Assembly: GCF_023169965.1 (NCBI RefSeq)
Contig: NZ_AP025592.1
Location: 1,178,001 to 1,242,000, forward strand
Length of the DNA stretch: 64,000 nt
Source of the DNA: Anaeromyxobacter paludicola
GTDB lineage: Bacteria > Myxococcota > Myxococcia > Myxococcales > Anaeromyxobacteraceae
Direction: 5' to 3'
Part shown: positions 5,049 through 50,678 of the stretch, one piece after another
How positions within the stretch are numbered: the stretch's first letter is position 1
Layout of the letters: every line of letters starts with the position of its first letter
Position numbers and translations under genes: made by a program
Notes under the pieces: model-generated
The model's database searches: none
Seen by the model: the letters and a program-made list of their open reading frames with translations, nothing else
Told to the model about the DNA's origin: nothing

Positions 5049-5078
5049 TGCATAGCCGCCGCCCGGAACGACTGTCAA
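5049..5078 (-). promoter_or_regulatory. Sigma-70-type promoter before metX-hom
   Basis: On the minus strand TTGACA (5078-5073), an 18-bp spacer and TATGCA (5054-5049) lie in the short gap after the upstream kinase gene, overlapping its last codons. The -35 is perfect and the -10 partial. The predicted start near 5042 suits translation from 5015. No SAM riboswitch-like structure fits in the gap. Confidence 0.45.
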
Positions 5079-6700
5079 GGTTGGCGCGGACGCGCGCCGG
5101 GGGCGATCGGCAGGTCCACGCGGAAGGTGGTGCCGCCGGGGCCGGTGTCGAAGCCGATCCGGCCGCCCATCTGCTCCACGATCTCCTTGCAGATGTAGAG
5201 CCCGAGCCCGGTCCCCTTCCCCACCGGCTTGGTGGTGAACCAGGGGTCGAAGATCTGCGGCGCCGCGTCGGCCGGGATCCCGTGCCCCTCGTCGGCGACC
5301 TCGACCCGCACCGCGGGCCCCTCGACCCGGGCCCGCACCTCGACGCGCCCGCGCCCCTGCATCGCGTCCACCGCGTTCTCGAGCAGGTTGATGGTCACCT
5401 GCGCGAGCGCGCCGGGCAGACCGAGCACCTCCGGGAGCCGGGGCTCGAGCTCGAGCTCGAGCAGGACGTCGCTGCCGCGCGCGCCACGGAAGACGGCGAC
5501 CGCCTCCTGCACCGGCACGCCGGGATCGAAAGCGGTCGGCTGCCCCGGGCTGCGGCGGGCCATGCTCTTGAGCGTCTGGATGATGCCCGACATGCGGTCC
5601 AGGCCGGCGAGGCTGTCGTCCATCATCTCGCGCAGCTCGCCCGCGAGCTCGGTGAGGTCGGGCCCCGGGCGCGCGCCCTCCCCCGCCAGCCGGGCCTCCT
5701 TCTCCGCCGCGAGGCCGCAGAGGATCTCGAAGCCGGACGCCAGCCCGCGCAGGTTGGAGCGGAGCGCGGCGAGCGGGTTGTTGATCTCGTGGGCGATGCA
5801 GGCGACGAGCTGGCCCAGGGTGGCGAGCCCCTCGCGCTGGACCGCCACCTCGCGGGCGCGCCGGGCCGCCGCCTCCGAGGCGGCGCGGGCGCTCCGCTCG
5901 GCCTCGAGCGCGAGCTCGCCGCGAGCCCGCCCCAGGAGCGAGCCGGCCGCGTCGGCGAACCCCTGCACGAGCCGCAGGTCGCCCTCGGCCAGCATCGGCC
6001 CGTGGGCGTAGATGGCCCCGACCAGCTCCCGCCCGGCCAGCACCGGCAGCGCCAGGGAGCCGGCCACCTGGCCGCGGCGGCCCGGCGCTCCCCGCCCCGG
6101 CGCGCGGACGATCCGCGCCACGTGGATGGGCTGCCGCGCCTGGATGGCGCGCTCGGCCAGCTCCTCCGGGGAGACGCCCTCGCCGGCGAGCTGGGGCGGC
6201 GCCGGGCGCGCGGCCCGGGCGAGGACCACGAGCCGGCCCCCCTCGCGGCCGTAGAGGACGAACTGGGTGTCGGGCAGCGCGTGGCCGAGCGCCTCGAGGC
6301 CGCGCGTGGCCGCCTCGAGCGGCCCCGGCCCCGAGGCCACGCCCGCGAGCATGGCGCGGAGCGCCCGGGCCTGCTCGCGCGCGCGCTCCATGGCGTCGCG
6401 CGAGAGCACGGCGGTGAAGCCGTCCTCCTCGGGAGCGACGAGGAGCCTGAGCTCGCCCGCCGCGGTGGCCAGGCGATGCTCCGCGGTGCGCCCGAGCTCG
6501 GCCGCGCGGCGCGCCACCGCCGGCAGCGACGCCGCGACCTCGTCGCCCCCCGGGCCGCGCAGGAGGTCGCGCGCCGCCAGGTTCGACCAGCTCACGGCGC
6601 CGGCGGCGTCGAGCCGGAACAGCCCCACCGGCAGCTCGTCCACCAGGGCGCTCGAGGAGCCGGACGGTTCGAGCCAGGGGATGGACGGGTCTCGGGTCAC
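5075..6700 (-). CDS. PAS-GAF sensor histidine kinase (FlrB/FleS-like)
   Basis: A 541-residue cytoplasmic kinase: PAS (about 20-100), GAF-like domain (about 115-265), HisKA with IAHEINNPLAAL (His304) and an HATPase domain with N box INLLENAVDAM, G1 DEGHGIP, F box FDPWFTTKP and G2 GKGTGLGL. No membrane segment is evident. GTG at 6700 has GAGG five bases upstream; GTG at 6643, immediately before the PAS domain, is an alternative supported by the sigma-54 promoter position. It is divergent from a FleQ-like activator, the context of flagellar kinases FlrB/FleS. Neither nearby activator has a receiver, so its phosphorylation target is unclear. Confidence 0.85.
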   Translation of the reverse strand: MTRDPSIPWLEPSGSSSALVDELPVGLFRLDAAGAVSWSNLAARDLLRGPGGDEVAASLPAVARRAAELGRTAEHRLATAAGELRLLVAPEEDGFTAVLSRDAMERAREQARALRAMLAGVASGPGPLEAATRGLEALGHALPDTQFVLYGREGGRLVVLARAARPAPPQLAGEGVSPEELAERAIQARQPIHVARIVRAPGRGAPGRRGQVAGSLALPVLAGRELVGAIYAHGPMLAEGDLRLVQGFADAAGSLLGRARGELALEAERSARAASEAAARRAREVAVQREGLATLGQLVACIAHEINNPLAALRSNLRGLASGFEILCGLAAEKEARLAGEGARPGPDLTELAGELREMMDDSLAGLDRMSGIIQTLKSMARRSPGQPTAFDPGVPVQEAVAVFRGARGSDVLLELELEPRLPEVLGLPGALAQVTINLLENAVDAMQGRGRVEVRARVEGPAVRVEVADEGHGIPADAAPQIFDPWFTTKPVGKGTGLGLYICKEIVEQMGGRIGFDTGPGGTTFRVDLPIAPGARPRQP

Positions 6701-6714
6701 GATCCTCGAAAGGG

Positions 6715-6731
6715 TGCAAGGTTCCTGCCGA
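6715..6731 (-). promoter_or_regulatory. Sigma-54 promoter candidate for the sensor kinase gene
   Basis: The minus strand reads CGGCAGGAACCTTGCA with GG at 6729-6728 and GC at 6717-6716 exactly 10 bp apart; GGCA, the later G and TTGCA match consensus. The predicted +1 (about 6704) falls inside the Shine-Dalgarno of the GTG at 6700, so either the start is at 6643 or the match is fortuitous. Confidence 0.45.
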
Positions 6732-7022
6732 GCAGAACTACCCCCCAGTCGAGTCACGCGCCAGTTTCCTGCGCCCCGGAGCTGCTCCCTTCGGGCGAGG
6801 ATCGCGGCCCCTGTCGCCAGGAATCCGGCAGCGCCCCCGACAGAGCGCCAGCGCGACCACTCCGCCGCACATCCGTGCGTCCCAAACTCCAGGTACATCG
6901 CGGACTTGGCTGACGTCCTTCGGACCGGATCTGGCGACCCCGGGTCGCATGGGACTCGCCTCGCGTCACGCGAACGGCGTCAACAACCCCTCGGAGTTCC
7001 TGAACGTCACTCCTGTGACGGA
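6732..7022. other. Noncoding divergent regulatory spacer with an inverted repeat
   Basis: About 290 bp between the kinase and the FleQ-like activator in which no convincing gene is seen. It contains a perfect 6-bp-arm inverted repeat CGTCAC-TCCT-GTGACG at 7005-7020, ending 4 bp before the -24 element of the downstream sigma-54 promoter. That position would suit a repressor or accessory factor. Confidence 0.45.
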
Positions 7023-22850: not shown

Positions 22851-22867
22851 GTGGCACGGTGCGTGCT
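22851..22867 (+). promoter_or_regulatory. Sigma-54 promoter of the chemotaxis operon
   Basis: GTGGCACGGTGCGTGCT contains a perfect TGGCACG -24 element, GG (22853-22854) and GC (22865-22866) 10 bp apart, and GTGCT at -12. The predicted +1 near 22878 is 32 bp before the cheA ATG. No other promoter-like motif is seen in the 154-bp gap after motB. Confidence 0.78.
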
Positions 22868-22909
22868 CTCCAGCCCGGCGGACGTCCGAACCCCTCACGA
22901 GAGGCCGAG

Positions 22910-25165
22910 ATGAGCGCGCGCGCAGGCGAGAACGGGAACCAGGGGGGGGAGCGTGGGCGCTCGCCGGCCGTCATCCTCGAGGAGATCGCCGCGGCGGTGG
23001 TGCTGGCCGACTCGATGGATCCCGAGTCCCTGACCCAGCTCGCCGCGCGCTTCCAGGAGCTCGAGGTGGCCGCGCCGGAGCCCCGGATCGCCGCCCGCGC
23101 CGGGGAGTGCGCCGAGCTCCTCACCCGGGCCGCCGCCGCCGCAGAGGACGCGGACCGGGCCAGCGCGCTCGGCGTGGTCGGCGACGCCACCAGCCTCTTG
23201 CAGCAGGCGCTCGCGGGCGGCGAATGGCCCGCCGAGCCCGCCGCGGCCGCGGCCGCGGGCCCGGTGGAGAAGGTGGAGCGCGACGAGGAGACCGTCATGC
23301 TCTTCGGCGAGTTCCTGCAGGAGAGCGGGGACGGGCTCACCCGGGTGGACGGCATCCTCATGAAGGTGGAGCAGGCGCAGGCCGACGCCGAGTCGGTGAA
23401 CGCCCTCTTCCGCGTGTTCCACACCATCAAGGGCACCGCCGGCTTCCTCGAGCTCGAGGCGGTGGTGGCCCTCGCCCACACCACCGAGACGATGCTCAAC
23501 TGCTGCCGGCAGCACACGCTGGCGCTGTCGGGCCCGGTGGTGGACGTGGTCTTCGACGCCACGGCGCTCATGCGCCGGATGATCGAGGACGTCCAGACCG
23601 CCATCGAGAAGGGGCTGCCCTTCGGCCGGCCGGGGGAGCTCACCGGCCTGCTCGCCAAGATCGAGGCCGTGACCGCGACCGCCGCGCCCGGCGAGGACGG
23701 GCCGCCGGCCGCGGCCCCCTCCCCGGCGCCCGTCGCGGCACCCGCGCCCGCGCCGACCCCCACGCCGGCCCCCGTGCCGACCCCGATCGCGGCCCCGGCG
23801 CCCGTCGCCGCGCCCACGCCGGTCGCCCCGACGCCGGTCGCCGCCGCGCCGGCGCCCGCCCCGGCCGTCGCCCCGCCGCCCCCCGCCCCCACGCTCACGC
23901 CGGTCTCGGCCGGCGGGTCCTCCGAGCCGGTGCGCATCAAGGAGACCATCAAGGTCGATCTCGAGCGCGTGGACAGCCTGGTGGAGATGATCGGCGAGCT
24001 GGTGGTCGTCGAGTCGATGGTGGTGAACGCCCCCGAGATCTCCGCCGTGGAGTCGGTGCGGGTGCGCAACTGCCTGGCCCAGCTCGCCAAGGTGACGCGC
24101 GACCTGCAGGACGTTGGCATGCGGATGCGCATGGTCCCGGTCTCCGGCGTCTTCCAGAAGATGGCGCGCATGGTCCGCGACCTCGGCAAGCGGGCCGGCA
24201 AGCAGGTGCGCATGGTCCTCACCGGCGAGCAGACCGAGATGGACCGGAGCATGGTCGAGCAGATCGCCGACCCGCTCGTCCACATGATCCGCAACGGGAT
24301 CGACCACGGCATCGAGTCGCCGGAGGACCGCGCGAAGGCCGGCAAGCCGGCCGAGTGCGTCATCCGCCTCAGCGCCTACCACGAGGGCGGCCACATCTGC
24401 ATCGAGGTGGCCGACGACGGCCGAGGCCTGGACAAGGACGCCATCCTCCGCAAGGCCAGGGCGCAGGGGCTCGTCAAGGAGGGCGAGGAGCTCCCCGACG
24501 AGCGGATCCACGCGCTCATCTTCGCCCCCGGCTTCTCCACCGCCAAGAAGGTCACCGAGATCTCCGGCCGCGGGGTGGGCATGGACGTGGTGAAGCGGAA
24601 CGTGGAGGCCATGCGCGGCCGCGTCGTCATCTCGACCGTGAAGGGCCAGGGGACCACCTTCAAGATCATCCTGCCGCTCACGCTCGCCATCATCGACGGC
24701 ATGCTCGTGGCCTGCGGCGAGGAGCGCTACATCGTCCCCACCCTCTCCATCGTGGAGTCGGTGCAGCCCGAGCCCTCGATGCTGGTGTCGCTGGCCGGCG
24801 CGAACGAGATGATCAACCTGCGCGGCGAGATCCTGCCGCTGGTCCGGCTCGACCGGCTGTTCGGCATCTCCAACGCCAAGAGCGAGCCCACCGAGGCGCT
24901 GGTGGTGGTCCTCGAGGGCGTCGGGCGGCGGCTCGGGCTGCTCGTGGACGAGGTGGTCACGCAGCAGCAGGTGGTCATCAAGAGCATGGGGTCGGGGCTC
25001 TCCGAGACGCCGTTCGTCTCCGGGGCCGCGATCCTCGCCGACGGGCACGTGGGGCTCATCCTCAACGTGGACGAGATCGCCGGCGGCATCCACGAGAAGG
25101 GCCACCGCGAGCTGTACGCGCGCCAGCAGCAGACCTCACCCGCCGGCTCGAAGAGCGCGGCGTAG
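22910..25165 (+). CDS. cheA: Chemotaxis histidine kinase CheA
   Basis: A 751-residue kinase. An extra helical N-terminal segment of about 120 residues precedes the Hpt domain (phosphorylated His171 in VFHTIKGTAGF). A linker of about 80 residues made of Ala, Pro, Val and Thr replaces P2. Then come dimerisation (about 340-400), HATPase (IRNGIDHGIESP, DDGRGLD, GFSTAKKVTEISGRGVGMD) and a C-terminal CheW-like domain (about 600-745). It phosphorylates CheY and CheB. ATG 22910 has GAGAGG upstream. The apparent absence of P2 suggests that response regulators dock without a dedicated domain. Confidence 0.95.
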   Translation: MSARAGENGNQGGERGRSPAVILEEIAAAVVLADSMDPESLTQLAARFQELEVAAPEPRIAARAGECAELLTRAAAAAEDADRASALGVVGDATSLLQQALAGGEWPAEPAAAAAAGPVEKVERDEETVMLFGEFLQESGDGLTRVDGILMKVEQAQADAESVNALFRVFHTIKGTAGFLELEAVVALAHTTETMLNCCRQHTLALSGPVVDVVFDATALMRRMIEDVQTAIEKGLPFGRPGELTGLLAKIEAVTATAAPGEDGPPAAAPSPAPVAAPAPAPTPTPAPVPTPIAAPAPVAAPTPVAPTPVAAAPAPAPAVAPPPPAPTLTPVSAGGSSEPVRIKETIKVDLERVDSLVEMIGELVVVESMVVNAPEISAVESVRVRNCLAQLAKVTRDLQDVGMRMRMVPVSGVFQKMARMVRDLGKRAGKQVRMVLTGEQTEMDRSMVEQIADPLVHMIRNGIDHGIESPEDRAKAGKPAECVIRLSAYHEGGHICIEVADDGRGLDKDAILRKARAQGLVKEGEELPDERIHALIFAPGFSTAKKVTEISGRGVGMDVVKRNVEAMRGRVVISTVKGQGTTFKIILPLTLAIIDGMLVACGEERYIVPTLSIVESVQPEPSMLVSLAGANEMINLRGEILPLVRLDRLFGISNAKSEPTEALVVVLEGVGRRLGLLVDEVVTQQQVVIKSMGSGLSETPFVSGAAILADGHVGLILNVDEIAGGIHEKGHRELYARQQQTSPAGSKSAA

Positions 25166-25750: not shown

Positions 25751-26230
25751 ATGGCGCTCATCACCGTCGAGATCAGCGACCTGCGGGTCAGCGCCGACCA
25801 GGACTCCACCCTGGTGACCTACGCGCTCGGGTCGTGCATCGCCGTCATGGTGCACGACCCGCTGCGCAAGGTCGCCGGGATGATCCACTACATGCTGCCG
25901 CTCTCCGAGACCTCGGCCCAGAAGGCCGCGGAGCGGCCGGCCATGTTCGCCGACACCGGCATCCCCCTGCTGTTCAAGACCATGTACGGCTACGGCTGCG
26001 AGAAGAAGGACCTCGTGGTCAAGGTGGCCGGGGGCGGCGCCCTCTACGACGACCAGGGGCTCTTCTCGATCGGCAAGCGCAACTACACCGTGCTGCGGAA
26101 GCTGTTCTGGAAGAACGGCATCATCATCGCGGCCGAGGACGTGGGCGGCGCCCGGTCGCGCACCGTCCGGCTCGAGGTGCTCTCCGGACGCTGCACCGTG
26201 CAGTCCCAGGGCGAGGAGCTCGCGCTGTGA
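25751..26230 (+). CDS. cheD: Chemoreceptor glutamine deamidase CheD
   Basis: A 159-residue deamidase of chemoreceptors that also partners CheC/CheX phosphatases. The catalytic Cys is in TYALGSCIAVMVHDP; the catalytic His is in GMIHYMLP. VVKVAGGGAL and RNYTVLRKLF-type regions match the family (here KRNYTVLRKLFWKNG). It overlaps the next gene by GTGA. Confidence 0.96.
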   Translation: MALITVEISDLRVSADQDSTLVTYALGSCIAVMVHDPLRKVAGMIHYMLPLSETSAQKAAERPAMFADTGIPLLFKTMYGYGCEKKDLVVKVAGGGALYDDQGLFSIGKRNYTVLRKLFWKNGIIIAAEDVGGARSRTVRLEVLSGRCTVQSQGEELAL

Positions 26231-27090
26231 TCACCCCCGACCGCATCGCCGGCGCGATCGCCCAGCTGCCCACCCTCTCCACCGTCGCCACCCGGCTCTG
26301 GTCGCTCACCCGCGACGAGCGCTCCAGCGTGGCCGACTTCGAGGCGGTGATCCGGCCCGACCCGGCCCTGACCGCCAACCTGCTCCGCTACGCCAACTCC
26401 GCCTGGTTCGCGCCGCGCTCCCGCGCCGAGTCGGTGCGCCAGGCGGTGGTCCTCCTCGGGGTGAAGCGGGTGTGCGAGGTGGCGACCCTCGCCGCGGCCG
26501 CGCGCGTGGTCCCGCCGCGGCTCCCGGGCTACGGCTTGGACGCCCTCGGCTTCTGGCAGCACTGCGTGGCCGTGGCCGTCCTCTCGGAGCGGCTCTCGGG
26601 CGAGCTCGGGCTGCGCCCGCCCGACCTCACCTTCACGGCCGGGCTCCTGCACGACATCGGCAAGCTCGCCATCTGCAGCTTCGTCGCCGACCAGTCGGAC
26701 GAGATCCTGAGCGGCCTGCGCGAGGGGCTCTCCTTCGTCTCGGCCGAGCGGCGCGTGCTCGGGCTCGACCACGCGGAGATCGGCGCCGCGGTCGCCCGCG
26801 CCTGGAACCTGCCCCCGCAGGTGGCGGACGTCGCCGCCTGGCACCACGACCCGGGCCGCGCCCCGGACTCGGTCGATCGCGCCCTGGTGGACCTCGTGCA
26901 CGTGGCCGACGGCCTGGCGCAGCTGGTCGGCTTCGGGAACGACGTGGGCGAGCTCGCGCGCGAGATCGACCGCGGCACCCGCCAGCGGCTCGGCCTGAAG
27001 GTGCAGCAGCTCGAGCGCGCCGCCGGCGACTGCCTCGAACCGATCCGGGAGATGGGCGCCCTGTTCGCCCCGGCTGGAGGTCCCCGATGA
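26227..27090 (+). CDS. HDOD domain signalling protein
   Basis: A 287-residue HDOD protein (about 12-205) with LLRYANSAWFAPRS, SVRQAVVLLGVKRV and a retained HD motif GLLHDIGKLAI plus WHHDPG. HDOD proteins are usually non-enzymatic regulators of signalling or motility. GTG start overlaps cheD and the stop overlaps cheY (ATGA), so it is made together with Che proteins. A second HDOD gene lies at 31815-32669. Confidence 0.9.
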   Translation: MITPDRIAGAIAQLPTLSTVATRLWSLTRDERSSVADFEAVIRPDPALTANLLRYANSAWFAPRSRAESVRQAVVLLGVKRVCEVATLAAAARVVPPRLPGYGLDALGFWQHCVAVAVLSERLSGELGLRPPDLTFTAGLLHDIGKLAICSFVADQSDEILSGLREGLSFVSAERRVLGLDHAEIGAAVARAWNLPPQVADVAAWHHDPGRAPDSVDRALVDLVHVADGLAQLVGFGNDVGELAREIDRGTRQRLGLKVQQLERAAGDCLEPIREMGALFAPAGGPR

Positions 27091-27477
27091 GCTACAGCGT
27101 GCTGGTGGTGGACGACTCGTCCATCGTCCGCGCCATGGTCAAGAAGTCCCTCGCCATGGCCGGGCTCGACGTGAAGGTGATCCACGAGGCCGGGAACGGC
27201 GAGGAGGCGCTGGCCGTCCTGCGCCGCGAGTGGGTGGACATCGTCTTCGCCGACCTCAACATGCCGGTGATGGGCGGCCTCGAGCTGGTGCGCCACATGG
27301 CCGAGGACCGGCTGCTCGAGACCGTGCCGGTGGTGATCGTCTCCTCCGAGCACGCCGAGGCCCGCATCGCCGAGCTGAAGCAGCGCGGGGCGCGCGCGTA
27401 CATCAAGAAGCCGTTCCGCCCGGAGCAGTTCCGGGAGGTGCTCGGCGCCCTGCTCGGCGCCGGCGAAGGGGGATCCC

Positions 27478-27485
<8 letters not shown>
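27087..27485 (+). CDS. cheY: Chemotaxis response regulator CheY
   Basis: A 132-residue single receiver. VVDDSS (acidic pair), phosphoacceptor Asp56 in VFADLNMPVMGG, VSSEH and the lysine in YIKKPFRPEQF are all present. Probably the output regulator binding FliM. It overlaps the CheX-like gene by 8 bp. Confidence 0.92.
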
Positions 27486-28973
<1,488 letters not shown>

Positions 28974-28978
28974 GGCCG

Positions 28979-29005
28979 GGCGCGCCGGCGAAGGCCGCGC
29001 GCGCC
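28979..29005. terminator. Weak hairpin between convergent cheB and cheR
   Basis: GGCGCGC (28979-28985) and GCGCGCC (28999-29005) form a 7-bp GC stem with a 13-nt loop in the 31-bp convergent gap. There is no T-run on either side. Such stems arise easily at this GC content. Confidence 0.25.
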
Positions 29006-29811
29006 TACCCCGGCAGCCGGTAGACGCTCGGGCGCAGCGCCTTCAGCGGCGTCTTGAGCCCGTTCAGCGTCTCGGAGTGGCCCACCATGAACAGGCACCC
29101 GGGCCGCAGCAGCCGCGCGGCCTCCGACACCAGCCCCTGGCGCACGTGCTGGTCGAAGTAGATCATCACGTTCCGGCAGAGGATCCCGTCGAGCGGCCCC
29201 TTCATCGGGAACGGCGGGGTGGCGAGGTTGAGCCGGCGGTAGACCACCCGCTCCTTCAGCTCGGCGCGCACCGCCCAGGCCGGCTCGCCCGCCACCGCGG
29301 CCCCGGCCGGCTCGAGCCAGCGGCGGCGGAGCGGCTCGGGGATGGCCGCGACCTCGTTCTCGCCGTACACGCCGGCCTTGGCGCGGGCCAGCACGCGGGT
29401 CGAGATGTCGGTGGCGAGGATGAGCCAGTCGCAGCCCTCGAGCGCCCCGGCCAGCGCCATGGCGATCGAGTACGGCTCCTCGCCGGTGGAGGACGCGGCG
29501 CTCCAGATGCGGAACTTCCGCTGCCCGCCGTCGCGCAGGCGGGTGACGTCCCGCACCAGCTCCTCGATGTGGTCGGGCTCGCGGAAGAAGGTGGTGTAGT
29601 TGGTCGAGATGGCGTCGAGGAAGCGGACGATCTCCTCCTCCGCGCCCTCGCCGCGCAGGAGGTCGAGGTAGTCCCGCTCGCCCGGCAGGCCGAGCTCGCG
29701 GATGCGCTTGGCGATGCGGGCCTGGACGAGCGCCTCCTTCCCGTCGCGCAGGAAGATGCCGGCGTGCTTGTAGGCGACGTCCTGGAACCCCTGGAAGCTC
29801 TCTCGATCCAT
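29005..29811 (-). CDS. cheR: Chemotaxis methyltransferase CheR
   Basis: A 268-residue SAM-dependent methyltransferase of chemoreceptors. NYTTFFREPDHIEEL, SAM-binding WSAASSTGEEPYSIAM, ATDIS and LCRNVMIYFD are diagnostic. ATG 29811 has AGAGGG five bases upstream; residues that could be read further upstream are Arg/Ala-rich and not part of the family. It is transcribed against the rest of the che operon. No chemoreceptor gene is in the window. Confidence 0.95.
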   Translation of the reverse strand: MDRESFQGFQDVAYKHAGIFLRDGKEALVQARIAKRIRELGLPGERDYLDLLRGEGAEEEIVRFLDAISTNYTTFFREPDHIEELVRDVTRLRDGGQRKFRIWSAASSTGEEPYSIAMALAGALEGCDWLILATDISTRVLARAKAGVYGENEVAAIPEPLRRRWLEPAGAAVAGEPAWAVRAELKERVVYRRLNLATPPFPMKGPLDGILCRNVMIYFDQHVRQGLVSEAARLLRPGCLFMVGHSETLNGLKTPLKALRPSVYRLPG

Positions 29812-29826
29812 GTGCCCTCTGCGCCG

Positions 29827-29843
29827 TGCACCCGCCGTGCCCG
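29827..29843 (-). promoter_or_regulatory. Weak sigma-54 promoter candidate before cheR
   Basis: On the minus strand CGGGCACGGCGGGTGCA contains GGCACG and TGCA with GG and GC 10 bp apart. The predicted +1 (about 29816) falls in the cheR Shine-Dalgarno, which weakens the case. Confidence 0.35.
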
Positions 29844-30089
29844 GACCGCGGCGCTGACGCGCCTTGACGGCGCGCCGGGTCATTCCGCCCCCAGGGTCCA
29901 GGGGAACCACCCGCCGGAGCGGGGCCGCGGGGCCGCCCGACCCCGGGGTCGCGGCGCCCGGGCCCGCCCGGCGGGGCGGGGCGGCCTCCGCGCAACCTGC
30001 CGACCTCACGGGCGGAATCCTCGCCCGGCCGCCCCGGGCGCGCGCGGCGGCGGAGGTTCCCGGCGCCGCCGGCCGCCCGCCTCGAAGGC
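29844..30089. other. Noncoding spacer between cheR and the CheX/double-REC operon
   Basis: About 250 bp of the 320-bp divergent gap. I see only GC-rich low-complexity sequence and no gene, RNA structure or repeat I can defend. Activator binding sites for the flanking promoters may lie here. Confidence 0.4.
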
Positions 30090-30106
30090 GGGGCGTGGCG
30101 CTTGCA
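30090..30106 (+). promoter_or_regulatory. Sigma-54 promoter of the CheX/double-REC/HDOD operon
   Basis: GGGGCGTGGCGCTTGCA has GG (30092-30093) and GC (30104-30105) 10 bp apart and a perfect TTGCA -12 element; the -24 is less good. The predicted +1 near 30117 is 18 bp before the ATG at 30135, which suits that start. Confidence 0.5.
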
Positions 30107-30134
30107 AACACCCGTCGCAGACACCAACGACCCT

Positions 30135-30590
30135 ATGAACGCTCTCCCTTCTTCCGACAAGATGGCGGCAGTCGTTTCAGGCGTGACCCAGACCATGCTC
30201 GGGCTGTCGTTCGTCCCCGACGGCGGCTCCTCCGAGCTCTCGAACCTGGTCTGGCGCACGGCGGTGCTGCCGATCCCGGGCTCCAGGCCCATCACGGTGG
30301 GCCTGTCCTCGGACACCCACGGCTGCACCACGCTCAGCGCCGCCATGTTCGGCTGCGCGCCCGAGACGGTCGATCAGTCGATGATGAACGACTCGCTCTG
30401 CGAGCTCGTCAACATGACGGCCGGCCTGCTCAAGAGCCTGATGGCGCTCGACCAGGCCCTCGGCCTCCCCAAGATCGTGGACGGCGGAGACGGGGTCCCG
30501 GCAGTCCCCCCCACCGACGGCCAGCACGCGGTCGTGCTCCGCGCGCAGCAGGTGGGGCTCGTTCTCTGGATCATCGAAGGCATCGCGTAG
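30135..30590 (+). CDS. CheX-like protein, second copy
   Basis: A 151-residue protein with the CheX/CheC signature SLCELVNMTAGLLKSLM (about 86-102), including the Glu-x2-Asn pair needed for phosphatase activity. It precedes a double-receiver protein, a likely substrate. ATG 30135 is chosen; TTG 30102 would add 11 residues but lies on the -12 element. No clear ribosome binding site is visible. Differs greatly from the CheX-like protein at 27478-27942. Confidence 0.75.
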   Translation: MNALPSSDKMAAVVSGVTQTMLGLSFVPDGGSSELSNLVWRTAVLPIPGSRPITVGLSSDTHGCTTLSAAMFGCAPETVDQSMMNDSLCELVNMTAGLLKSLMALDQALGLPKIVDGGDGVPAVPPTDGQHAVVLRAQQVGLVLWIIEGIA

Positions 30591-30608
30591 CAGGAGGAAG
30601 ACGCACCC

Positions 30609-31799
30609 ATGGCAACGATTCTGACGGTCGACGACAGCCGCGCGGTTCGAACCATCGTGGCGAAGCAGGTCCGCGAGCTCGGCTTCGACGTCGGCGAGGC
30701 GGAGGACGGAGTGCAGGGGCTCGCCCGGCTCCAGGAGGCCAGGTTCGACCTGGTGCTGCTCGACGTCACCATGCCCAACATGGACGGGCCGACCATGCTC
30801 CAGACCCTGCGCGAGCGCGGGGACAAGACCCCCGTCATCATGCTGACCTCGGAGTCGAAGCGCTCCGTGGTGGCGAGCGCGCTGAAGCAGGGCATCACCG
30901 ACTACATCCTCAAGCCGTTCAAGCCGGAGGAGCTGCGGAGCAAGATCCTCTCGGTCCTCCAGGCCGCCGCCCCGGCCGACGCCCTCGCCGCCATGAACGC
31001 CGCCGTCGGCGCGCCCGCGGGGGCCGCGCCCGCCGCCCCGGCCGCGGCCGCCCCGTCCGCCGCCCAGCCGGCCGCCGGCGCGAAGGGGGCGATGGACCTC
31101 CTCGTCATCGACGACATGGAGAACGTGGCGAAGCGCCTCCGCCAGCTCCTGCCGCAGCAGCTCTCGCTGCACGGCGCGGTGAACGCGGCGCAGGCCCTGC
31201 AGGCCTGCCGCGAGGCGTCCTTCAAGGTGGTGCTGCTCGACACCGAGATCCCCGACGTCAACAGCGTGGTCCTCATGGGCCAGCTGCGCGTGCTGCAGCC
31301 GAACGCCGCCTTCGTGGCGCTCGCGCTCCGGACCACCAACGACGTGGTCAAGGAGGTCAAGCAGCAGGGCTTCGACGACGTCTTCTACAAGCCGTTCAAG
31401 CCGGAGAACATCGACGACCTCGTGGCGCAGTACTTCGAGAGCAGCAGCGACGCGCTCTCGATCCAGGACAACGTGGTCTCGATGGCCTCGTTCAGCGGCA
31501 AGCCGGAGCGGCTCGAGAAGTTCTACGGCCGCCTCACCACGATGCTCCCCGAGGCCCTGAACCAGCTCGCCAACGCCTGCTACGCCGACATGATCTTCCA
31601 GGTGGGCCAGGTCCCGAGCGACGGAGACCGGCTGCCCCGGCTCGTCATGGGGCTCGTGACCCAGGCGTCGAGCATGGGCATCGAGGTCTCCCTGGTCGGC
31701 TCCGACGAGGCCCGCAAGACGCTCTCCGGGTTCGACGAGACGAAGAGCCTCAAGTTCTACCCGACGCTGGAGGAGGCCCGCGCCGCCAGCGGCAGCTAG
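30609..31799 (+). CDS. Double-receiver response regulator with STAS-like tail
   Basis: A 396-residue protein. Receiver 1 (about 1-120) has DD8-9, Asp52 in LLDVTMPNMDG and YILKPFKP. An Ala/Pro linker (about 121-160) follows. Receiver 2 (about 162-280) keeps VIDDM, Asp211 and FYKPFKP, so both look phosphorylatable. The last roughly 115 residues have the alpha/beta pattern of STAS (anti-anti-sigma) domains, ending SSMGIEVSLVGSDEARKTL and YPTLEEARA; this domain call is tentative. It is flanked by a CheX-like protein and an HDOD protein, suggesting a phospho-regulated switch linked to motility. GGAGGAAG before the ATG. Confidence 0.8.
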   Translation: MATILTVDDSRAVRTIVAKQVRELGFDVGEAEDGVQGLARLQEARFDLVLLDVTMPNMDGPTMLQTLRERGDKTPVIMLTSESKRSVVASALKQGITDYILKPFKPEELRSKILSVLQAAAPADALAAMNAAVGAPAGAAPAAPAAAAPSAAQPAAGAKGAMDLLVIDDMENVAKRLRQLLPQQLSLHGAVNAAQALQACREASFKVVLLDTEIPDVNSVVLMGQLRVLQPNAAFVALALRTTNDVVKEVKQQGFDDVFYKPFKPENIDDLVAQYFESSSDALSIQDNVVSMASFSGKPERLEKFYGRLTTMLPEALNQLANACYADMIFQVGQVPSDGDRLPRLVMGLVTQASSMGIEVSLVGSDEARKTLSGFDETKSLKFYPTLEEARAASGS

Positions 31800-31814
31800 C
31801 GGAGCGCGAACCGG

Positions 31815-32669
31815 ATGAGCGCAGAGAAGCTCGCCGCCCAGCTGGAGCAGATCGTCCGCAAGCGGATCCAGGAGGACTCGCTGGTGCTCCCCACCCTGCC
31901 GTCGGTGGTGAAGCGCATCAACGAGATCCTCCAGGAGCCGGAGGTGAACCTGCGCCGCGCGGCCGAGGTGATCGAGCAGGACCCGGTCCTGGCGGCGCGC
32001 GCGCTGCGCGCCGGCGGCACCGGGCCCGGCAAGAAGGCCACCGTGCCCGAGGCCCTCGGGCGCATGGGGCCGCGCGCGGTCCGGGCGCTGCTGGCGGACG
32101 CCGCCGGGCTCAAGATGTTCGTCTCGCGCGACGCCAAGATCGCCGGGGCGGCGCGGAAGCTCTGGGAGCACTCGGTGGCGGTGGGCAACATGGCCCGCGA
32201 CGTCTCGGCGCTCTCCGGCTATCCGGACTCCCCCGGCGCATACGTGGCCGGGCTGCTGCACGACCTCGGCAAGTACGTGGTCATGGCGGTGCTGCTGGAG
32301 CTCGAGCGCCAGATGACCGAGCTCTACAACCAGCCCTGGATCGAGTTCGAGGAGTGGATCGACGTGGTCGGGCGCACCCACCGCGCCGTCGGCATGGCCC
32401 TGGCGGAGCGCTGGCAGCTCCCCGACGCCATCGCGAAGTGCATCCGCGACTCCTCGGAGTACGACAACTCGGATCGCTCGGCGCTGGTGAACGCCGTCTG
32501 CTTCGGGAACGCCCTCGCCAAGAAGGCGACCCTCTACTCCGGGCCGGTGGACGCCGACGACGTGGACGCGCTGGTGATGATCGGGCGCTCCCTCATCGGC
32601 GTGAGCGACGACGTCCTGAAGTCGCTCACGATGGGCCTGCGCGAGCGGGTCTCGGGCCTCTTCGACTGA
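31815..32669 (+). CDS. HDOD domain signalling protein, second copy
   Basis: A 284-residue HDOD protein with LPSVVKRINEILQEPEVNLR, VIEQDPVLAARAL, LLHDLGKYVV and the C-terminal VNAVCFGNALAKKA. The HD pair is retained. It is the last gene of a three-gene operon with a CheX-like and a double-receiver protein, and ends just before a large inverted repeat. Confidence 0.88.
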   Translation: MSAEKLAAQLEQIVRKRIQEDSLVLPTLPSVVKRINEILQEPEVNLRRAAEVIEQDPVLAARALRAGGTGPGKKATVPEALGRMGPRAVRALLADAAGLKMFVSRDAKIAGAARKLWEHSVAVGNMARDVSALSGYPDSPGAYVAGLLHDLGKYVVMAVLLELERQMTELYNQPWIEFEEWIDVVGRTHRAVGMALAERWQLPDAIAKCIRDSSEYDNSDRSALVNAVCFGNALAKKATLYSGPVDADDVDALVMIGRSLIGVSDDVLKSLTMGLRERVSGLFD

Positions 32670-32672
32670 GCC

Positions 32673-32716
32673 CGTCACCCCGCTGACGCCGGGTCGCCGA
32701 CGTCAGCGGGGTGACG
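32673..32716. terminator. Perfect 16-bp inverted repeat after the HDOD gene
   Basis: CGTCACCCCGCTGACG (32673-32688) and its exact reverse complement (32701-32716) are separated by 12 bases. The stem would be very stable. There is no T-run after it, so it could be a factor-assisted terminator, an mRNA-stabilising hairpin or a protein site. It lies between the signalling operon and the fliL sigma-54 promoter. Confidence 0.6.
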
Positions 32717-32757
32717 CCCTCGAAGGCGCAAGTCACCGGAATCACGGGCGCATCCGA

Positions 32758-32774
32758 GAGGCACGCCCCTTGCT
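32758..32774 (+). promoter_or_regulatory. Sigma-54 promoter of the fliL-fliA operon
   Basis: GAGGCACGCCCCTTGCT matches the core GGCACG-N4-TTGCT perfectly, GG at 32760-32761 and GC at 32772-32773. The predicted +1 near 32785 is 12 bp before the fliL ATG. It probably drives fliL through fliA and the glycosyltransferase. Confidence 0.85.
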
Positions 32775-42489: not shown

Positions 42490-43194
42490 ATGCACCTCGC
42501 CCACGCACGCTACGCCGCCGCCGGCGCCGAGGAGGGGGCGCTCATCGCGCGCCACGCGGCGCTCATCGACCGCGCAGCGCGGCGGCTCGCCGCCCGCACC
42601 GGCGGGGCCGTGAGCGCCGACGACCTCTGGAGCGTGGGCGCGCTCGGCCTGCTCGAGGCGGCCCGGCGCTTCGACCCGGCCCAGAACGTCCGCTTCGAGA
42701 GCTTCGCCGAGCACCGGATCCGCGGCGCCATGCGCGACGAGATGCGCCGCATGGACCACCTGCCCCGGCGCCTGCGCGCCCGGACCGAGGAGCTCGGGCG
42801 GGCCCGGGCGCAGCTCACGAAGGACCTGCAGCGCGAGCCGACCTCCGACGAGGTCGCCGCCGCGCTGGGGCTCGCGGTGGACGAGGCCGACGGGCTCGCC
42901 GGGCTGGAGCAGCCGGTGCTCCCCATGACCTACGAGCTCGAGGGCGTGAGCGAGGAGCGGGCCGACGACCTCGTGGACCGGGCGCAGCTGCGCGGCCGGC
43001 TGGCGTGCGCCGTCGGGCAGCTCCCGGAGCGGCTCCAGCTCGTGCTCTCGCTCCACTACGTCGAGGGGCTCACCTACCGCGAGATCGCGCAGGTGCTCGA
43101 GGTGAGCGAGCCGCGGGTCTGCCAGCTCCACTCCGAGGCGGTGCGCAAGGTGCGCGGGCTCCTCGCGGGCGAGGACGGCGACGAGGGGCCGTGA
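42490..43194 (+). CDS. fliA: Flagellar sigma factor FliA (sigma-28)
   Basis: A 234-residue sigma factor for late flagellar genes. Region 2 (LWSVGALGLLEAARRFDP, FESFAEHRIRGAMRDEMRRM), region 3 and region 4 (LPERLQLVLSLHYVEGLTYR) are intact. The matching anti-sigma FlgM is at 50367-50678. Confidence 0.96.
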   Translation: MHLAHARYAAAGAEEGALIARHAALIDRAARRLAARTGGAVSADDLWSVGALGLLEAARRFDPAQNVRFESFAEHRIRGAMRDEMRRMDHLPRRLRARTEELGRARAQLTKDLQREPTSDEVAAALGLAVDEADGLAGLEQPVLPMTYELEGVSEERADDLVDRAQLRGRLACAVGQLPERLQLVLSLHYVEGLTYREIAQVLEVSEPRVCQLHSEAVRKVRGLLAGEDGDEGP

Positions 43195-45410: not shown

Positions 45411-45427
45411 TTGGCACCGGCCTTGCT
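45411..45427 (+). promoter_or_regulatory. Sigma-54 promoter of the flgF operon
   Basis: TTGGCACCGGCCTTGCT matches TTGGCACG-N4-TTGCW at all but one position; GG at 45413-45414 and GC at 45425-45426. The predicted +1 near 45437 lies 20 bp before the flgF ATG, with GGAGGAG in the leader. The rest of the 185-bp fliJ-flgF gap holds a 10-bp palindrome CCCTTAAGGG at 45301-45310. Confidence 0.85.
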
Positions 45428-45456: not shown

Positions 45457-46164
45457 ATGTCTGACGGTCTCTACGTGAGCATGTGCGGCGCGACGGCGCG
45501 GTCGGATCAGCTCGACGCGATCGCCGACAACCTCGCCAACGCCCAGACGCCGGGGTTCCGCCCCTCGCGCCCGGCGTTCGAGTCGTTCCTGCCGGCCGGC
45601 GGCGCGCCCGACAAGGTCTACGCGGCCGCGGTCGGGACGGGCGTGAGCCTGAAGCCCGGCCCGGCGGTGCGCACCGGCAACCCGCTCGACGTCTACCCCG
45701 AGGACGGCGCCTTCCTGGCGGTCCGCGGCGCCGACGGCGCCACCGCCTACACCCGCGACGGCCGGATGACGCTCGACGCCGAGCGGCGCCTCACCGCCGG
45801 CGGCCGGCTCGTGCTCTCCACCCGCGGCGAGCCCATCACCGTGCCGCCCGAGCGCACCGCCACCGTGGATCGGGACGGGGTGGTGCGGGCCGGCGACCTC
45901 GAGCTGGGCGAGGTCGCCCGCGTGCAGCTGCAGGGGCCGGCGGACCGGCTCGGCCCCTCCGTCGTCGTCCCCGCGCCCGGCGGAACCGCGAGCCCCGTGA
46001 GCGCCCCGCTCCGCGGCGGCGAGGTCGAGCTCGGCACCGGCAGCGCGCTCGAGGGGATGGTCGAGCTCATCTCGGCGCAGCGGCAGTTCGACTCGTCCAT
46101 GCAGGCCCTCCAGACCTACCGCCAGCTCGACCAGCGCTCCACCGACGTGGGCCGCGTCCGCTAG
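45457..46164 (+). CDS. flgF: Flagellar rod protein FlgF
   Basis: A 235-residue proximal rod subunit. QLDAIADNLANAQTPGFRPS and the TGNPLDVYPEDGAFLAVRG segment identify it; the C-terminus MVELISAQRQFDSSMQALQT is standard. Ribosome binding site GGAGGAG. Confidence 0.95.
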   Translation: MSDGLYVSMCGATARSDQLDAIADNLANAQTPGFRPSRPAFESFLPAGGAPDKVYAAAVGTGVSLKPGPAVRTGNPLDVYPEDGAFLAVRGADGATAYTRDGRMTLDAERRLTAGGRLVLSTRGEPITVPPERTATVDRDGVVRAGDLELGEVARVQLQGPADRLGPSVVVPAPGGTASPVSAPLRGGEVELGTGSALEGMVELISAQRQFDSSMQALQTYRQLDQRSTDVGRVR

Positions 46165-50370: not shown

Positions 50371-50678
50371 AGGTCAAGAACACCAGCGAGACCACCCCCA
50401 TCGACGGCAGCCGGACGACCGAGGCCAGGAAGGCGTCCGGCGCCGACCCCTCGGCCCCGCCCGAGCGCGTCAGCACCCCCGATAGCACCAAGTTCGCCGC
50501 GGCCGTGGACGCCGCCCGGCAGCACCTCGGCGCGACCCGGGCCGCCAAGCTGCAGAGCATCGCCGCGGCGGTGAAGCAGGGCACCTACCAGCCCGACCCG
50601 AACCAGATCGCGCAAGAGATCCTCGACGACGCCGAGCTGACCGCGTCGCTGCAGGGGATGCTGAAGCGCCTCAAGTGA
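50367..50678 (+). CDS. flgM: Anti-sigma-28 factor FlgM
   Basis: A 103-residue, disordered protein that holds FliA inactive until exported. The C-terminal FliA-binding part (KLQSIAAAVKQGTYQPDPNQ, IAQEILDD) is the family signature. Overlaps flgJ by ATGA. Confidence 0.93.
   Translation: MKVKNTSETTPIDGSRTTEARKASGADPSAPPERVSTPDSTKFAAAVDAARQHLGATRAAKLQSIAAAVKQGTYQPDPNQIAQEILDDAELTASLQGMLKRLK

Follow-up and report, generated by a model that had tools for sequence, protein, structure and literature searches.

Closest described systems

Stand-alone HDOD proteins alter swimming in other bacteria (PMC11813219, PMC11004494, PMC6543031), and SadB, GsmR, PSPTO_4229 and Cj0248 all carry an HDOD domain linked to flagellar motility. 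The HDOD-bearing motility regulator SadB is reported to bind c-di-GMP (PMC6543031), and PSPTO_4229 of Pseudomonas syringae resembled a chemotaxis gene when screened for fitness, its interaction partner not being known (PMC11813219). In Pseudomonas aeruginosa, the HsbR-HsbA/FlgM system places a STAS-type anti-sigma factor antagonist under response-regulator control and is tied to flagellar gene expression (PMC6482189). In addition, the group-alpha che clusters of Geobacter, a deltaproteobacterium, contain a stand-alone HD-type protein (PMC2577667). Aspartyl-phosphate phosphatases of the CheX/CheC/FliY type complete the set of relevant systems.

The locus described here lies in a 64,000-nucleotide stretch of Anaeromyxobacter paludicola DNA, the whole of which is called the window. 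Three adjacent genes, the trio, encode a CheX-like protein (CheX1), a response regulator that joins two receivers to a STAS-type C-terminal domain (RRS) and an HDOD protein (HDOD1), and each of these parts belongs to a known family. CheX1 shares with the CheX/CheC/FliY phosphatases the CheX Pfam family, the D-x3-E-x2-N motif and the chemotaxis context; however, its neighbouring receiver protein is a REC-REC-STAS protein rather than a plain CheY, and the same region encodes another CheX, accompanied by a separate receiver and HDOD protein. Whereas HsbA is a separate antagonist, itself phosphorylated, with HsbR as a distinct regulator, the STAS domain of the trio is fused to two receivers, lacks the serine and has CheX1 as its candidate eraser. 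The layout of PSPTO_4229 (273 aa, HDOD at 23-210) is nearly that of HDOD1 (284 aa, HDOD at 25-213), but no CheX or REC-STAS partner is described for the HDOD motility proteins in the passages considered from their reports. The Geobacter clusters differ in that a STAS domain is not mentioned in the main text (PMC2577667). Neither an HDOD protein together with CheX nor a REC-STAS regulator was found in the open-licence literature, and CheX and HDOD are both absent from the main text of the 2008 Anaeromyxobacter genome paper. The combination thus apparently is undescribed in that literature, in agreement with an earlier note made from the letters of this DNA.

The trio and its gene neighbourhood

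The genes under discussion, together with the nearest candidate phosphodonor, are as follows.

30135 to 30590, plus strand: cheX1, putative CheX-type aspartyl-phosphate phosphatase (151 aa; Pfam PF13690, 8.5e-10)
30609 to 31799, plus strand: RRS, REC-REC-STAS response regulator (396 aa; relatives align over the full length at 40-58% identity)
31815 to 32669, plus strand: HDOD1, third gene of the trio (284 aa; Pfam HDOD, 1.4e-34)
22907 to 25165 (start approximate), plus strand: cheA of the neighbouring che operon, candidate phosphodonor (Hpt, H-kinase_dim, HATPase_c and CheW domains)

The three open frames of the trio are separated by gaps of only 18 and 15 nt. The gene content that the earlier note had read from the sequence, a CheX-like protein, two receivers and an HDOD protein, is borne out by Pfam, in which RRS matches Response_reg twice (4.4e-47). 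Upstream, cheR lies on the opposite strand (inside 29005-30111), and fliL, fliM and fliN follow downstream. The genome is a single contig of 4.59 Mb and encodes four CheA-type proteins.

CheX1 scores 39 bits against the curated Pfam cut-off of 27. Its motif D86-x3-E90-x2-N93 is intact, as is P112, and D86, E90, N93 and P112 are invariant in all 22 aligned sequences. These residues match the phosphatase motif of CheC/CheX, with E90 and N93 presumably the catalytic residues known from published CheX/CheC work. HDOD1 matches its family far above threshold (119.8 bits versus a cut-off of 22.9) and conserves H119, H149, D150 and H189; N232 replaces the last Asp of the HD superfamily, a position that is Asp in HD enzymes.

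The neighbouring che operon carries a second set of the same kinds of protein, encoded by genes whose ends overlap.

26227 to 27090, plus strand: HDOD2 (Pfam HDOD, 7.4e-55)
27090 to 27485, plus strand: single receiver (Pfam Response_reg, 2.8e-25)
27478 to 27942, plus strand: cheX2, overlapping the receiver gene (Pfam CheX, 1.1e-10; ExxN motif in the alignment)

CheX1 and CheX2 are the two CheX matches above cut-off in the whole genome, and a weak third lies near another CheA. The earlier note had pointed to this second, distinct CheX-like protein and proposed that the two may each act on a separate receiver; the second protein is indeed there, and the proposal fits the finding that both CheX genes adjoin a receiver gene of their own. 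HDOD2 retains an Asp (VHVADGLA) at the position of the HDOD1 Asn.

Three elements bear on how the trio is transcribed.

30091 to 30106, plus strand: candidate sigma-54 (-24/-12) element GGGCGTGGCGCTTGCA (GG-N10-GC; 9 of 12 consensus positions)
32668 to 32721, no strand assigned: inverted repeat following the trio, perhaps a terminator although it has no T run (25-nt arms, 88% complementary)
32759 to 32774, plus strand: separate sigma-54 site AGGCACGCCCCTTGCT before fliL (11 of 12 positions)

In this GC-rich window, a 9/12 match to the sigma-54 consensus is expected about 32 times by chance, and the site at 30091-30106 was therefore rejected as promoter evidence on its own and kept because relatives have it in common. 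In the two nearest families 19 loci were counted, and in 17 of them cheX is preceded at short distance by a site with at least nine matches, against an expectation of about 2.45% for each. Because several of the 19 are almost identical to one another, the binomial value overstates the strength of this contrast. Most of the more distantly related loci showed no sigma-54 site upstream of cheX. The sigma-54 promoter that the earlier note had placed before the trio thus gains from conservation in the two nearest families what the near-chance match alone could not give it. Since the inverted repeat and the strong site both stand between the trio and fliL, the trio is probably a transcription unit of its own, and the 11/12 site makes a separate promoter for the fliL operon probable. 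Near-perfect (11/12) sites number four in the window (22852, 32759 and 45412 on the plus strand, 185 on the minus strand) where 0.2 are expected; those at 22852 and 32759 stand just before cheA and fliL, and that at 45412 precedes an open frame at 45457.

Two receivers with different equipment

RRS begins with two receiver domains.

30618 to 30947, plus strand: receiver 1, residues 4-113 (canonical D8, D9, D52, T80 and K102; Pfam Response_reg)
31092 to 31439, plus strand: receiver 2, residues 162-277 (D168, D169, D211 and K261 kept; switch Thr replaced by Ala239)

The earlier note had spoken of two apparently functional receivers. For receiver 1 this stands, as all five residues are invariant in 26 of 26 aligned RRS sequences. 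For receiver 2 it is not borne out as worded: although the pocket of D168, D169, D211 and K261 is likewise invariant in 26/26, the switch position 239 is occupied by Ala in 15 sequences, Pro in five, Cys in two, Val in two, Ser in one and Tyr in one, and by Thr in none of the 26. Receiver 2 is thus not canonical. From the alignment, the invariant pocket argues that metal or phosphate may still be bound, while the lack of Thr argues against switching in the usual way; taken together, they make a sink or docking domain likelier than a second switch.

These features also bear on a different reading, in which phosphate from CheA is lost through the two receivers, so that the CheY-P signal ends sooner. 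CheX1 would accelerate this loss, with the STAS domain doing no more than anchoring or oligomerising the protein. Such a phosphate sink would suit the intact acid pockets of both receivers, the second of them unable to switch in the usual way, as well as the cheX gene immediately upstream of RRS and a regulator in which Pfam recognises neither a DNA-binding nor an enzymatic output domain. A pure sink, however, would not need the STAS domain and the HDOD gene, both of which are kept across several families of the phylum, and we regard this reading as unlikely.

The C-terminal domain of RRS

31452 to 31790, plus strand: STAS-fold C-terminal domain, residues 282-394 (AlphaFold2, Foldseek, VIA and hhalign)

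Residues 281-396 of the window protein give nothing specific in Pfam or NCBIfam and no STAS match. Six of 18 alignment members match STAS weakly, below the Pfam cut-off (best E 0.015), and a profile search of PDB sequences returned weak matches only (RsbR, E 0.3); fold and profile-profile comparisons were therefore needed. An AlphaFold2 model of the domain built from 26 sequences has a mean pLDDT of 90, and its best Foldseek matches are RsbS, TM1081, SpoIIAA and other STAS domains. STAS proteins also top the VIA list, with Z from 12.8 to 12 (best Z 12.8 over 106 residues). Moreover, hhalign against 18 STAS domains from related genomes gives a probability of 96% (E 4.8e-9), while 30 column shuffles reach at most 0.45%. 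Judged by predicted fold, with strands and helices alternating like those of SpoIIAA and RsbS, and by profile homology, the C-terminal domain of RRS is a STAS domain. The similarity suspected in the earlier note, on which the single sequence is silent in Pfam, is thereby confirmed.

The partner-switch part of that note fared differently. In the profile-profile alignment, the D-S-S-G motif of STAS domains aligns to G339-D340-R341-L342, so that Asp340 occupies the phospho-Ser position at the start of STAS helix 2, a residue-level placing that rests on this one alignment. Across the 26 RRS sequences the position is Asp in 20, Glu in four, Lys in one and Gln in one, i.e. acidic in 24/26. A search of the genome with PF13581 did not identify an RsbW-type kinase gene beside the trio; its sole match in the window is an ordinary HisKA histidine kinase at 5075-6898, and its many matches elsewhere may include both RsbW-type and histidine kinases. 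Because the serine is fixed as Asp or Glu, we propose that serine phosphorylation is not what switches the STAS domain. A classical partner switch, with a STAS output under two phosphorylation sites and erased by CheX, has the REC-REC-STAS architecture and the adjacent CheX in its favour, both of which are real, but the acid in 24/26 sequences and the missing switch Thr of receiver 2 in 26/26 make it very improbable.

The same position weighs on control of the HsbA type, in which the STAS domain would bind FlgM or another anti-sigma factor under the direction of receiver 1 and so set late flagellar gene expression. HsbA of P. aeruginosa, an anti-sigma factor antagonist, does bind FlgM (PMC6482189), and the window encodes FlgM (near 50490-50627) and a FliA-like sigma factor (42490-43194). 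Yet HsbA needs its own phosphorylation to switch, where RRS has Asp or Glu at the Ser position, and a dedicated kinase/phosphatase pair was not identified near the trio; we consider such control quite doubtful. The FlgM gene, coding for an anti-sigma-28 factor, belongs to the same flagellar region as the trio.

Conservation and association with flagella

RRS loci were sought in GTDB species genomes with one short motif, and presence was scored only through that motif. The scan gave 27 RRS loci, and three further matches were weak and confined to the receivers. Titles of the 27 name Anaeromyxobacter, Archangium, Kofleriaceae, Sandaracinus, other Myxococcales and unplaced deltaproteobacterial bins. 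In 20 of these 27 Myxococcota loci, taken from named contigs, cheX, RRS and the HDOD gene are immediate neighbours in the same order and on the same strand, and the trio is thus conserved. By the earlier note's own terms, a lack of conservation or of STAS similarity would have refuted its reading, and on both counts the reading stands. Two of the twenty (L071 and L090) have a regulator frame broken in the assembly; the other 18 have intact frames, mostly spaced by less than 70 nt. Among the remaining seven, three have cheX but no HDOD gene was found (L073, L074, L081), one runs into a contig end, two have no recognisable cheX and one has RRS alone (L084). Since an HDOD protein went undetected beside CheX and RRS in L073, L074 and L081, and L084 keeps RRS by itself, HDOD is not obligatory to the module. 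Distance correlation is good for RRS-HDOD (0.70) and modest for CheX-RRS (0.39).

The chemotaxis and flagellar setting recurs as well. A cheA homologue lies within the fetched flanks of 16 of the 27 loci; in two (L077, L092) cheA, cheW, cheX, RRS and HDOD are consecutive on one strand, and a third (L080) has the same run plus cheR and a receiver gene. As in the window, the trio stands before fliL-fliM in four relatives of its own family or near it (L040, L042, L043/L044, L045). One Myxococcota genome (G030; L060, L062, L064, L065 and others) has nine STAS-profile matches, lying in frames some 370-430 aa long, so that REC-REC-STAS-like proteins have expanded in this lineage. One Archangium MAG has three RRS loci (L073, L079, L081), two of them with cheX but without HDOD; as contamination of the assembly is estimated at about 7%, the three may derive from more than one organism.

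The STAS-domain query was found in 21 of 193 genomes of the phylum, and in 22 with the profile, the extra one at E 1e-3. Genomes were counted as flagellated when FliM matched below 1e-18, a cut-off set after seeing the gap to weaker matches that probably belong to type III secretion. By this measure 38 of the 193 genomes are FliM-positive overall, compared with 19 of the 21 with RRS (Fisher p 7e-14, a guide only because the genomes are related). Within the window's own family, a qualifying FliM match occurs in nine of nine genomes with the trio and in none of the 15 without it. The two genomes with RRS but without a qualifying FliM (G030 and G041) carry divergent copies, and about half of the sampled flagellated genomes do not have the trio. 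Among the genomes sampled, the trio thus appears almost only in flagellated Myxococcota species, and this near-restriction suggests that it probably links chemotaxis signalling to swimming.

A proposed signalling route

Given these observations, the trio may well be a conserved module accessory to chemotaxis in flagellated Myxococcota, a reading that we hold with moderate confidence, in which CheA acts on receiver 1, CheX1 erases the signal, the STAS domain provides a binding output and HDOD1 is the partner or effector. From the domains, invariant residues, gene order, co-occurrence with flagella and promoter motif we infer a phosphoflow and an output as follows. CheA of the che operon would phosphorylate receiver 1 at Asp52; its gene neighbourhood makes it the natural donor, though with four CheA-type proteins in this genome a different one may play that part. 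CheX1 would strip the phosphate from receiver 1, and receiver 2 would serve as an interaction domain or phosphate sink instead of switching in its turn. Phosphorylation of receiver 1 would then alter the binding of the STAS domain, which would not itself be switched on serine. The likeliest binding partner or effector would be HDOD1, a natural candidate because the genes are adjacent in most loci and HDOD proteins alter swimming elsewhere, and the eventual target may be flagellar behaviour or flagellar gene expression.

A more specific form of this module can be put forward tentatively. The two receivers of RRS would drive a permanently “phosphomimetic” STAS domain. CheA would set the binding of this domain to an HDOD protein and a dedicated CheX would erase it, giving flagellated Myxococcota, next to CheY-FliM, a second branch of chemotaxis output. 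The trio would then be a case of a receiver-fused STAS domain with its switch Ser fixed as an acid. HDOD proteins affect swimming in several bacteria, but the one studied most closely as a chemotaxis-like gene had no known partner. If the proposal is true, an HDOD protein would gain a receiver-controlled partner and a phosphatase, that is, a testable route from CheA to HDOD.
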